Part shown: positions 23,964 to 58,271 of the stretch, in pieces
Layout of the letters: every line of letters starts with the position of its first letter
Position numbering within the stretch: position 1 is the stretch's first letter
From: Naegleria lovaniensis
Lineage: Eukaryota > Heterolobosea > Eutetramitea > Acrasida > Naegleriidae
NCBI RefSeq assembly: GCF_003324165.1
Contig: NW_025407825.1
Span: forward strand, 62,001-126,000
Length of the DNA: 64,000 bases
Reading direction: 5' to 3'
The notes under the pieces: generated by a model
Seen by the model: only the letters and a program-made list of their open reading frames with translations
Told to the model about the DNA's origin: nothing
Databases searched by the model: none
Program-made: the position numbers and the translations under genes

Positions 23964-25814
23964 TTACTGCACCACACCTGCGATTGACCCTTGATGATAG
24001 AGGTGAGCAGAGAGAGGGTCGACATGTTTTGGTGTTCCATGAATTAAATGAGACCAATCCCAACGACTTAACGTCTCTCTGAAACAAAAAGGTGCTAAAA
24101 GCGAAATCAAAACACAAACAGTTCCTGGAAAGTAGATGAAAATCACAAATTGCACAAAGCCCATCTCTGGAAAGAAAAAGTACATCAATGAAAATGTAAA
24201 CCAAACAGCAAATATTTGCACCCCACAGAAATATTTGAAAATTGTGTCCCAATCATCTTCAGATGCATTCCAAAGTTCTCTTATAAATTCAGTGTAGGAA
24301 TGTGGTAAATTTTTCAAGTGTTTCAATAAATTAATAAAGGTTCTATGTTTTTGAAAAACAACGACATGGCCATTTCGTTTGTGATGAAAGAGTGAGTGGT
24401 GTTGATTTGGATGAGCAGGTTTTGCTTCTTCCTCAATTTCATGATTCTCATTCAAGGATAAACCCACTTTTCCTATTTTTCTTCTATAATATAATATGGC
24501 AATATAAAATAAAATCTCACTGGTATGATCACAAGTCATAATCACTTTTTGAACCATTGGAGAATATTTGAAATTGTCATACAAGTAGAGCCATGGAATT
24601 TCACAGAAAATTTCCTCACCATAAATTGGCCAAAATAATTTGACACCTTTCATGTAAATCACATCTAAGAAAATGTGGAAGATAGCTCCAACGAGGAATC
24701 CAATTGCAAAAGGTAAATTCAACCATTTGAAATCTCTCATAAATTTTCCCCACAGTGGTAATTTGCTGTAAGGCTGAGATTTATGGCCATGATGATGATG
24801 ATTGGTAATGTGTGAGTGAGTCACGTGCTCGCTTGTTGCTCCTACCTGAGATGTTGTTGAAAAGTTATTGAGAGGAGCAGCTGCCTTTAAACCACTTGGA
24901 GCATCATCATCAATACTCGGCGAGTGTTCGTGCAAGTGAGGATGTTCATCACTCAACACTCGTGACGATATGAGAGTACTTTCCTGAATCATGTCTTCAT
25001 CATTGGTCGTTTCTGCAGATGTTGTTGAAATGTTGTCATTGGTAGTAGTAGTGGTCGTTGTCAAACTTTGAGCAGCTCCCTCTTCATTCAGCTGATGTTG
25101 TTGATGATGATTCATAATTTCGGAATTATGGCCAGATGTGTCCGTGACTCGAAGATGAGCGGTCATCATGCTACTAGTATTGTTACTGCCACTACTAATA
25201 CTCGTCGAATGGTTTTTTGTGGATAAATTGAGTGGTGATTGTTTCTTCTTGTTGAGAATGTGATAATCTCTCTTATTATACATATAAATGAATAGAATCA
25301 GTAAAGGAACACAAAGGATGAGAGAATGAGTGGCCGTCCGATGCACGGCTTCAGCCACTTGTCTATTATCCTCACCATCATAGCCTAGAAAGAGGTAACA
25401 AAACACAATGGAAACAATGGCAAGACACAAATCCACATCGGGCATGACTGAGCCTACAATAATACCAAATTGAAACCATTCTCGATCAATCCTTCGGTGG
25501 TAGATTCGATGAAGAAGTGGTGCTAGAGGTGTTATTGTTGTTGTTTGTGAATGATGATCTTCATTGATTTTCAAATCGGAAGACGGCGACAAGGAAGATG
25601 ATGGATGAGGCTTCATGCCATAAAGTTGAATTTTAGTATCCATAGTAGAATGATGAGGGGTTGATAATGTGCAATTATCATGATTGGTGTCTTGATGTTT
25701 TCGTGAAGATGTTGATGACTTGGTTTGTTGTTGTTGTTTCCGCAGGAAATAGGCTATCCATTGGAGAATGTAAAAGAGAATGAGGCCAAATAGAAAATGA
25801 ATTCCTCCAGGCAT
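23964..25814 (-). CDS. YdjM-like integral membrane metal-dependent hydrolase
   Basis: 616 residues from the ATG at 25814 (MPGGIHFLFG). Seen: an N-terminal transmembrane helix and the pattern PDVDLCLAIVSIVF, HRTATHSLILCVPLLILFIYMY (HRxxTHS), and GFLVGAIFHIFLDVIYMKGVKLFWPI (GxxxHxxLD..T/KGVxLFWP). This combination defines the YdjM/YfhO-type 'LexA-regulated, membrane-bound metal-dependent hydrolase' family, known mainly from bacteria and archaea. His- and Asp-rich motifs suggest a metal site. A 200-residue Ser/Thr/His-rich insert separates the HRxxTHS and HxxLD parts. At least two further helices lie near the C-terminus (FAVWFTFSLMYFFFPEMGF and FVIFIYFPGTVCVLISLLAPF). Biochemical role unknown in eukaryotes. 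Confidence 0.65.
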   Translation of the reverse strand: MPGGIHFLFGLILFYILQWIAYFLRKQQQQTKSSTSSRKHQDTNHDNCTLSTPHHSTMDTKIQLYGMKPHPSSSLSPSSDLKINEDHHSQTTTITPLAPLLHRIYHRRIDREWFQFGIIVGSVMPDVDLCLAIVSIVFCYLFLGYDGEDNRQVAEAVHRTATHSLILCVPLLILFIYMYNKRDYHILNKKKQSPLNLSTKNHSTSISSGSNNTSSMMTAHLRVTDTSGHNSEIMNHHQQHQLNEEGAAQSLTTTTTTTNDNISTTSAETTNDEDMIQESTLISSRVLSDEHPHLHEHSPSIDDDAPSGLKAAAPLNNFSTTSQVGATSEHVTHSHITNHHHHGHKSQPYSKLPLWGKFMRDFKWLNLPFAIGFLVGAIFHIFLDVIYMKGVKLFWPIYGEEIFCEIPWLYLYDNFKYSPMVQKVIMTCDHTSEILFYIAILYYRRKIGKVGLSLNENHEIEEEAKPAHPNQHHSLFHHKRNGHVVVFQKHRTFINLLKHLKNLPHSYTEFIRELWNASEDDWDTIFKYFCGVQIFAVWFTFSLMYFFFPEMGFVQFVIFIYFPGTVCVLISLLAPFCFRETLSRWDWSHLIHGTPKHVDPLSAHLYHQGSIAGVVQ

Positions 25815-35336: not shown

Positions 35337-37303
35337 ATGAATTCATCATCCTCTTCACCTCCAAGAAAATTATTGAAAACGATGCCCAACCATCTCACTA
35401 ACTCATCGGAAGAGGACACTGAAGCATGTTCCTCCTCTCATACCAATTCTACAATGAAAATTATAACAAGCGGTTCCAATCATGATGCAGAATCCGATCA
35501 ACTGTTAATGCCCTCTCCTGCTGCACAAATTCCATCCTTCTCTCAACAACAAATGATTCATCATTTTACAAGCAACAATTCGAGTCAAAATCATTATTCA
35601 GATTCAACTCCAAAGAAGAGATTGTATGAAACGGCGTTGAACAATTACTCCTCGCAGCATCATTCTTCACGTTTATTCCCAACTAATTTAACTCTTCCGC
35701 CTGATCATTTTGAACATGATATTACTCAATCACCTGCTTTTCCTGTGTTGAAAGACCTGTTTGATGCTTGTGATATTAATAATAGAGATACGGAACTAAA
35801 ATCTGCTATGTCCTCATCATTATCCTCAGGGTCTTCAATATTTTCGGAAAACCATCAAATAGACTCACAGGGAGAGGTACAAGTGCCACCATCATCTCAA
35901 CGAGATGCGAGTGACAACATGGTTGATCAACAAACGTTGAACAATGTAAATTATTCAGCAACAAGTGTTGCGGCAGCAGTAGAGGCAAAACCATTAATTT
36001 GTAAAGAAATTGAACCAAAAGAAATCAAGCTGAATGTTTTGAATTTAAACAAAAAGGGTCATCACATCAGAATTTTACTTGTAAGTGTGCATTATGGACC
36101 ATGTACATGAATGCAATTAATTGTCAAATTCAAATATTCGACTATGGAAACACCATTCGAATGATGTAAATAACCCTTCCTCAACCAGGTTCGACATGGT
36201 CAATGTATCACCAATGTACAAAAAACCATTTTACAAGAGAAACCCGATCATTCAATACCATTAAGCAAAATTGGAGAAGAACAAGCAAAAGCAGCAGGTG
36301 TATATATTCGGAGATTCTACGAAGAAATGAATCGTAGACTGAAAGAACAAATCGATAAGCATAATTTAAATTATATTGACATTTCAAACAAAAAGTTTTC
36401 CAACACTGTGAAACACATTTCAAACGAAACAACCGAATTTAAATTTGATAACGATAGTGATACTGAGGAAGACGTTCAACATGCTTCTCACAATGGAAAC
36501 AATCATGGAAAAGTTGTGACATATCCGTTAAGAGTAAGATTATGGAATTCCACATATAACAGAGCTAGAATGACAGCTGAATATATCATGAAGGAAGCAT
36601 CCAACGTCATTCAAGACCAAAGGTAGGTGACGTGGCGTATTTTAAAAATTGCGACGTAATACGTGGTAACCACTCGTATCGACATGAAATTAACGTGATT
36701 AGGGAGAGCATTTTACTTGTGGAGCAGCAATTTGGCCTATTCGAAGGAGTACCTTTGGAAGAGTTGGCCAATCGTTTCCCTCAAGAATTCAGACATTTTG
36801 AAAAGCATATTTGTGCAACAGGTCGTTTTTATGCTCGTCCTCCTCTTGGAGAATCCAGATGTAAGTAACAAATATTTGGTAATCACATATTATTGTGACG
36901 GCTTAATATAACATGAAGTTGATGTTTCGAAACGAGTACAATTGCTGTTTGATAAATTTATTGAAGACAGCGAAAAAGAATGCATCAATGATATTGTAAT
37001 AGTATCACATGGTGTAACTGTTCGTTCTTTCACACAGAGTAAGTAATACTGAGATAATGTCAAAGGATTAACACAAACAACCATTGAATTCATAATTGTT
37101 TAGTGGTATGTTTATGATACATTGTTCTTGACATGAAGTTATTCATCATGGTTCATTCAAAATATTAGTGGCTTGACCTTAGTCCTGAATGGTTTGACAA
37201 GGAAATGAATCCCAACAATTGTGGCATTCGTTTACTGGATGGACAACACCGAGATAGAGGTTATGTATTTAATGGCTTTGGTCTCTCCCATCATCGAAAC
37301 TAA
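35337..37303 (+). CDS. Histidine phosphatase (phosphoglycerate-mutase-like), 6 exons with a 2-nt microexon
   Basis: Exons 35337-36080, 36189-36622, 36703-36860, 36919-37038, 37104-37105 and 37169-37303 join in frame to 530 residues. The first 240 residues are Ser/Asn/His-rich and disordered. The catalytic branch-1 motif VRHGQC starts exon 2 (Arg250, His251, Gly252); RVRLWNSTYNRARMTAEYI gives the second conserved arginine region. ESILLVEQQFGLFEGV is the usual RE...EQ.FG..EG segment, PPLGES..DV..RV the GES motif, and VSHGVTVR (His476) the second histidine. It ends MWLDLSPEWFDKEMNPNNCGIRLL, matching MRWF.WS...F....NPGNC.V. Substrate unknown. Between exons 4 and 6 the frame needs a 2-nt exon that completes Met486. 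Confidence 0.85.
37104..37105 (+). other. Predicted 2-nt microexon (TG)
   Basis: The flanks read TTGTTTAG before and GTATGT after, giving 65-nt and 63-nt introns of normal size on either side. Exon 4 ends with a lone A and exon 6 starts TGG CTT GAC. Joining exon 4 straight to exon 6 gives A-TG-GCT-TGA, an immediate stop. Inserting TG completes ATG and restores the conserved M-W-L..P.WF end of the histidine-phosphatase fold. Confidence 0.75.
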
Positions 37304-56777: not shown

Positions 56778-58271
56778 ATGGAGAATGATGTTGAACTTTG
56801 TGTGTTGTTGGTAGATTTTACGTTACCATCATCATCGGATCATGATAATACGACTAGAAATTCTCTATCCGAAATGATGAGAAATAAATTTACAAGACAG
56901 CAAGCCGGAAAGAAAAAGTTTTTGGAAAATAGAAACCATTCAAGATCTCTTGATTTTTTACCTATTGAATTTATGAAGGATAAATCATTTGTTTTAAATT
57001 ATATTCAACATTGCAATCATGATAAGAGTTACGAATTTTTAAAAAGTGCAGCTATTGAGTTCAGACATGATCCACAAGTTATGATTGAAATTGTCAAACA
57101 TGCAGGTTATATGCTAGAATATGCTTGTGCAGATTTGCGAAATGATAAGGATCTTGTGATGGAAGCTGTCAAACAACATGGTAACGCGTATTCCTATGCT
57201 TCTGAAACATTGAAAAACGATAAGGATATTATTTTGGCAGCTGTCAAACAATGGAACCAGATTCGTTTCACTTTGGCCAACGAATGGAAGAACGACAATG
57301 ACATTTTTTTGTGTTCGATATGTCCCAATGTTGCTCACAAATATTCACATACACATTGGAATAATGACATGATCTCACTTTTCTCAACATTGAAAGATGA
57401 CAAGGAATTCTTGCTGGATGCTGTCGAAAGATATCCAACCGCTTTACAATTCATATCAGACGAGCTTAGGAATGATAAACAGTTCATACTTTCGTGCGTT
57501 AAACAAAATGGAGACTCACTACGATATGCTTCCGATGATTTGATAAATGACAAGGAATTGGTTTTAAAGGCATTGAAACAAGACGTGTATTTACTTGAAA
57601 ATGTTTCAGACGAGATCAAGAGTGACAATGAATTTATCATGCGAGCAGTTCAAGAAAACGGGTTTGCATTAGTGTTTGCACCACAAAGTTTTATGAACCT
57701 TTTGCAACATGACAGGAGTATATTATTACAAACAGTTAAATTATTTGGCTCTGCTCTTCAATATGCATCGTACGAAATGCAAAACGATAAGGAAATAGTA
57801 TTAGAAGCAGTTCAACAAAATGGACATTCTTTAGTGTTTGCTTCAGATGAATTGAAAGATGATCAAGAGATTGTGTTAGCAGCTGTAACAAATCAAAGAG
57901 CAGCATTTCAATATGCATCCACAAGGATTTTGAATGACAAGGAATTTGTGTTGCAATTAATCAGACAAAACTTGACGACAGTATTGGCGTTTGCTTCTCC
58001 CGAGTTGAGACAATGCAAAGAAATTGCTCTCGAAGCAGCCAGACACGTGTGCTTTGCATGGGATTGCATCATTAGTCATGATCCAGACCATCCACTCTTT
58101 CTTTATTTCTCGAATGAAATTCTATTTTCTGATCCAGACATGATGCTGGAATGTGCCAAGTATACAGGTTATGCCCACAAGTACAGTGATACCTTATACA
58201 AGGCTCGAATGGATCATTATTATGATGGAATTTATTTGGGAAACCATAGTAATAAGGTGTCGAGTGGATGA
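56778..58271 (+). CDS. DUF4116 repeat protein
   Basis: 497 residues. From about residue 55 to 425 it is built from eight to nine repeats of about 45-50 residues of the DUF4116 type, reading LRNDKExVLxAVKQNGxALxYASDEL. Examples: LRNDKDLVMEAVKQHGNAYSYAS, MQNDKEIVLEAVQQNGHSLVFAS, LKDDQEIVLAAVTNQRAAFQYAS. This helical repeat family is expanded in amoebae and some giant viruses; function is unknown. The N-terminal 55 and C-terminal 70 residues are not repeat. Single exon. Confidence 0.85.
   Translation: MENDVELCVLLVDFTLPSSSDHDNTTRNSLSEMMRNKFTRQQAGKKKFLENRNHSRSLDFLPIEFMKDKSFVLNYIQHCNHDKSYEFLKSAAIEFRHDPQVMIEIVKHAGYMLEYACADLRNDKDLVMEAVKQHGNAYSYASETLKNDKDIILAAVKQWNQIRFTLANEWKNDNDIFLCSICPNVAHKYSHTHWNNDMISLFSTLKDDKEFLLDAVERYPTALQFISDELRNDKQFILSCVKQNGDSLRYASDDLINDKELVLKALKQDVYLLENVSDEIKSDNEFIMRAVQENGFALVFAPQSFMNLLQHDRSILLQTVKLFGSALQYASYEMQNDKEIVLEAVQQNGHSLVFASDELKDDQEIVLAAVTNQRAAFQYASTRILNDKEFVLQLIRQNLTTVLAFASPELRQCKEIALEAARHVCFAWDCIISHDPDHPLFLYFSNEILFSDPDMMLECAKYTGYAHKYSDTLYKARMDHYYDGIYLGNHSNKVSSG

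Follow-up and report, generated by a model that had tools for sequence, protein, structure and literature searches.

A two-nucleotide exon predicted between two short introns of a Naegleria histidine phosphatase gene

Whether two bases can stand as an exon of their own is the question raised by a histidine phosphatase gene of Naegleria lovaniensis, which lies on the + strand at 35337-37303 of the window (the whole 64,000-nucleotide stretch of contig NW_025407825.1 analysed here, in whose numbering all positions are given) and reads as six exons encoding 530 amino acids followed by a TAA stop (Table 1). Very probably the gene is intact and specifies an ordinary histidine phosphatase of branch 1, its introns 4 and 5 being divided by a constitutive exon consisting of nothing but TG. 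Frame logic, the spacing of homologous motifs and splice-site scores, all derived from the DNA sequence, indicate that TG is almost certainly an exon, which would place it in the mature mRNA. The window has a GC content of 36.9 %, carries GT-AG introns and encodes proteins of the WD40, RRM, LRR, TPR and Arm families; the published genomes of N. fowleri and N. lovaniensis have a GC content of about 36-37 % (PMC9928731), and in composition and gene style the window fits an amoeba of this kind. Elsewhere in the window, positions 56778-58268 encode a protein with eight DUF4116 repeats (Pfam 2e-101), and the minus strand at 23967-25814 encodes a eukaryotic protein that matches the bacterial YdjM inner-membrane family PF04307 (5.6e-15).

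Table 1. Exons and introns of the histidine phosphatase gene, with the basis of each assignment (a slash marks a splice junction)
Feature	Position	Strand	Content	Basis
Exon 1	35337..36080	+	low-complexity N-terminal extension, end ...HIRILL	open frame from ATG; donor CTT/GTAAGT
Intron 1, 108 nt	36081..36188	+	GTAAGT...ACCAG	independent gene-finder call
Exon 2	36189..36622	+	VRHG catalytic motif and lineage-specific insert	homology
Intron 2, 80 nt	36623..36702	+	GTAGGT...ATTAG	gene finder
Exon 3	36703..36860	+	...FYARPPLGESR	homology to FYARPPDGESR
Intron 3, 58 nt	36861..36918	+	acceptor ATGAAG	GESR-FDVSKRV against GESR-ADVAQRV, gapless
Exon 4	36919..37038	+	...IVIVSHGVTVRSFTQ + A	homology and frame
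Intron 4, 65 nt	37039..37103	+	GTAAGT...GTTTAG	sequence; frame; exhaustive alternatives
Exon 5, 2 nt	37104..37105	+	TG, completes ATG (Met)	frame restoration; 18-residue spacing 89/89; profile score; k-best parses
Intron 5, 63 nt	37106..37168	+	GTATGT...ATTAG; ACATGA element 37131-37136	sequence; splice scores; element enriched in window introns
Exon 6	37169..37303	+	WLDLSPEWFDKEMNPNNCGIRLLDG...HHRN stop	homology through NPxN motif

Exon 4 closes on TTC ACA CAG A, directly followed by GTAAGT at 37039, while exon 6 opens at 37169 with TGGCTTGACC (read as TGG CTT GAC) and runs to the TAA. Between them, in TTTAG/TG/GTATGT at 37099-37111, an acceptor AG and a donor GT directly border the two bases. 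A preliminary description of the locus had placed TG in exactly this way between a lone A and TGG, flanked by introns of 65 and 63 nt (37039-37103 and 37106-37168), and proved correct to the base. It had also stated that skipping TG brings an immediate TGA and that reading through either intron leads to stops as well, and the translations agree: skipping yields FTQMA-stop, retention of intron 5 FTQMVCL-stop and retention of intron 4 FTQSK-stop, so that a stop is reached within 2-4 codons in each case. Neither side permits readthrough: directly upstream of exon 6 an in-frame TAG is supplied by that exon's acceptor, and a TAA inside the donor (GTAAGTAA) shuts the frame of exon 4. With TG included the whole 530-codon frame is open, and this model is the only one to achieve it. 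An exhaustive search for single introns, covering all those with GT-AG, GC-AG or AT-AC ends that leave the frame open to the stop, returned 54 in-frame parses, every one of which deletes conserved residues; no canonical GT-AG intron preserving the conserved core was found among all single introns of the region. TG is thus needed for the reading frame.

The product falls into PF00300, histidine phosphatase branch 1, with 88.9 bits against a Pfam gathering cut-off of 21.7, which bears out the identity first proposed for the gene. Residues R8, H9, G10, R68, E95 and H171 are invariant in our alignment (A1), and we take them to be the catalytic RHG, Arg, Glu and second His of branch-1 histidine phosphatases. 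Rhizobium- and Clostridia-type members share the RHG, EQxFG, GESRxDVxxRV, HGVTxR and NPxN motifs at about 35-39 % identity, whereas the amoeba protein has in addition a long low-complexity N-terminus and, following FYEEM, an insert of some 70 aa. Plasmid-borne relatives (Rhizobium, Sinorhizobium, Methylobacterium) align at about 35-38 % identity over nearly the whole core, and an alignment-guided scan added 80 further loci in bacterial and archaeal genomes, with two in viral contigs. Among the prokaryotic and viral collections the closest relatives are bacterial, namely a Clostridia MAG (39 %), a Rickettsiales MAG (38 %) and Rhizobium (35-38 %), and the gene may have been acquired by lateral transfer.

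Across the junction itself the alignment is gapless with the Rhizobium, Methylobacterium, Clostridia-MAG, Kribbella and Streptomyces relatives. The strongest argument from homology is length: the distance from HGxTxR to NPxN is exactly 18 residues in all 89 relatives that carry both motifs, a set drawn from bacterial genomes, plasmids and two viral contigs which includes many close Rhizobium kin and comprises 52 distinct sequences from several phyla. The model with TG reproduces this count. It also obtains the highest score against the family profile (201.4 bits), and profile scores and spacing place the competing models in the same order. Second comes a non-canonical splice directly after CAG, a shift of the AG/TAAGT type that would join exon 4 to TGG as FTQ-WLDL; it keeps the frame and costs only 4.2 bits (197.2). 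However, it would require an intron with a non-GT start beside a perfect GTAAGT, and its spacing of 17 residues occurs in none of the 89 relatives, so we regard it as extremely unlikely. Third, a single intron from the donor AA/GTAATA (37043) to the acceptor CTTAG/T (37182) would yield FTQSNPEWF. Among the in-frame GT-AG single introns that retain exon 4 through SFTQ it is the least damaging, but it drops four positions kept in every relative (14 residues instead of 18), both of its site scores are negative (-2.9 and -5.8) and its profile score is 15 bits lower (186.3), which leaves it hardly credible. Skipping and retention reach at most 164.2 bits.

The residue created by TG calls for a distinction. 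The preliminary description had seen in the new junction the conserved M-W end of the family. For the tryptophan this stands in a broader form, the column being aromatic or rarely Leu (F in 63 relatives, W in 24, L in 2), whereas the Met column is occupied by N (63), R (23), A, S or T. What is conserved, according to the alignment, is the spacing and the following aromatic residue; Met itself is not a conserved residue of the family.

A different way of accounting for the locus is to suppose a single 130-nt intron (37039-37168), together with two bases lost by the assembly at the exon border or a frameshifted pseudogene allele. Such an intron would lie inside the size range of the window. However, the loss would have had to hit the splice junction exactly, the rest of the 530 codons is intact with all catalytic motifs present, and TTTAG-TG-GTATGT would have to be a product of chance. 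When the 130-nt stretch was dinucleotide-shuffled 5000 times, a pair of sites at least as strong enclosed an exon of 1-12 nt in 19, a frame-compatible one in 4 and one of exactly 2 nt in none; under much looser thresholds, exactly 2 nt was obtained in 17 of the 5000. This explanation thus appears very unlikely.

The splice scores are approximate, having been computed with a small home-made gene finder for which 26 introns of the window served as the training set. The training introns span 47-230 nt, so that lengths of 63-65 nt are normal for this DNA. Against the model, none of the 26 has scores as low as those of the intron 4 donor (AGA/GTAAGT) and the intron 5 acceptor (AAATATTAG/T), although the core consensus is complete in both and the weakness lies outside it. 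Left unconstrained, the gene finder ends the gene at 36868 and does not call exons 4-6, since three more introns cost more than such short exons gain. When the stop at 37303 was fixed and parses from exon 3 onwards were ranked by splice and codon scores, blind to homology, the 37103/37106 pair flanking TG was used in each of the 12 best. The two best choose a different acceptor for intron 3, and the top one also a different acceptor for intron 5; in both cases, judging from the protein alignment, homology overrules the choice. A further AG-2-GT site at 36859 was considered and is just the coding end of exon 3.

Within the introns themselves, one element recurs. A box of the form [AT]CATG[AT] is strongly over-represented in the zone that lies 10-60 nt before 3' splice sites, occurring in 11 introns against 1.4 expected, and plain CATG is found in the same zone in 14 introns against 3.1 expected; neither count was reached in any of 1000 shuffles of the 26 gene-finder introns of the window, in which a yeast-like YTRAC shows no enrichment. 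The box may be a branch-region element of this lineage. Intron 5 contains a copy, and another, again ACATGA, lies at 36911-36916, directly before the acceptor of intron 3, which departs from YAG and is fixed by homology. Against the model, intron 4 is without CATG, as are 12 of the 26 others; about half of the introns have it. A tandem duplication of introns 4 and 5 was rejected: their similarity exceeds that of shuffles by 2.1 s.d., an excess that may come from the splice motifs they have in common.

How could so short an exon be spliced? Introns 4 and 5 are short U2-type GT-AG introns, most likely recognised across the intron and excised one after the other. The U1 contact region of the intron 5 donor (-3 to +6) physically overlaps the acceptor AG of intron 4. 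Because of this overlap, U1 and the 3' splice-site machinery probably cannot bind together, so that splicing is probably sequential, and exon definition across TG becomes implausible. Since both introns are short and each has complete ends, sequential removal intron by intron would be the natural route. We infer that intron 4 leaves first: its excision would turn GTG/GTATGT into ATG/GTATGT, a better donor context, and the calculated score of the intron 5 donor rises from 5.95 to 7.96. The A and TG, once joined, would form the Met codon and carry the frame into exon 6. That this codon is built from two exons, one of only two bases, had already been proposed and is supported: the reading frame, the splice signals and the homology of the protein each require the two bases.

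The same arrangement would also be compatible with regulation, TG being alternatively included as an on/off switch and its skipping truncating the phosphatase after FTQMA. Skipping would use two functional sites, remove a normal-sized intron of 130 nt and give a product without the last conserved block. However, the sequence carries no regulatory sign: no special motif was found there, and the predicted RNA stem of 37039-37168, which holds TG and both splice sites and was considered as a hairpin joining them, is no stabler than shuffles (z = -0.69 and -0.20, the former being the fold score). A switch is therefore unlikely, and constitutive inclusion of TG remains the preferred reading. We hold as quite improbable the more far-reaching proposal that the lineage routinely tolerates sub-codon exons through pure intron definition and obligatory ordered removal, with inclusion or skipping of TG gating phosphatase activity.

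Exons below the length of a codon have been proven in plants. The 1-nt exon of APC11 in Arabidopsis was established by cDNA and reporter constructs; replaced by TT, the resulting 2-nt exon was spliced in Arabidopsis and mis-spliced in rice protoplasts (PMC4674806), which counts against the notion that 2-nt exons are handled everywhere. In land plants, 1-nt exons are conserved in APC11 and VPS55 (PMC8831610). Like TG, the exons of APC11 (PMC4674806) and VPS55 (PMC8831610) are sub-codon, essential for the frame, flanked on either side by a GT-AG intron and overlooked in normal annotation. The differences are that the TG exon has 2 nt, occurs in a protist and is predicted here, whereas those cases were validated by cDNA, and that the APC11 exon is found 333 nt inside an intron region of 422 nt, while the introns flanking TG have just 63-65 nt. 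The earlier remark, which put exons this short at the limit of spliceosomal definition, holds for exon definition. If introns of 63-65 nt are spliced one by one, the exon need not be recognised at all, and 1-nt exons are already proven in plants.

Fungal stwintrons (PMC12403724, PMC6616335) likewise involve two consecutive excisions at one place. There, however, an inner intron interrupts one of the signals of an outer intron (donor, branch or acceptor) and no exonic base remains, whereas TG leaves two coding bases and needs no nested donor or acceptor. A twin-intron reading was rejected here, as removal of everything between the outer sites causes a frameshift and both introns are complete in themselves, from GT to AG. 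Animal neural microexons of 3-27 nt (PMC7935315, PMC8378409) are likewise very short internal exons, but most are regulated and depend on dedicated splicing factors, while the TG exon is probably constitutive and intron-defined.

The length of the exon is thus within proven limits; the novelty lies in the lineage and in how short the flanking introns are. No paper on 2-nt exons, nor any on microexons in Naegleria, was found in the literature searched, which omits most subscription journals, and the nuclear cases below 3 nt found there are from plants. Ordinary annotation and read mapping easily overlook exons of 1-2 nt, and the locus is a warning that genes in such organisms may carry truncated annotation. 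A 2-nt exon between introns of 63-65 nt in a protist would offer a simple natural case in which to test to what extent intron definition is sufficient by itself.
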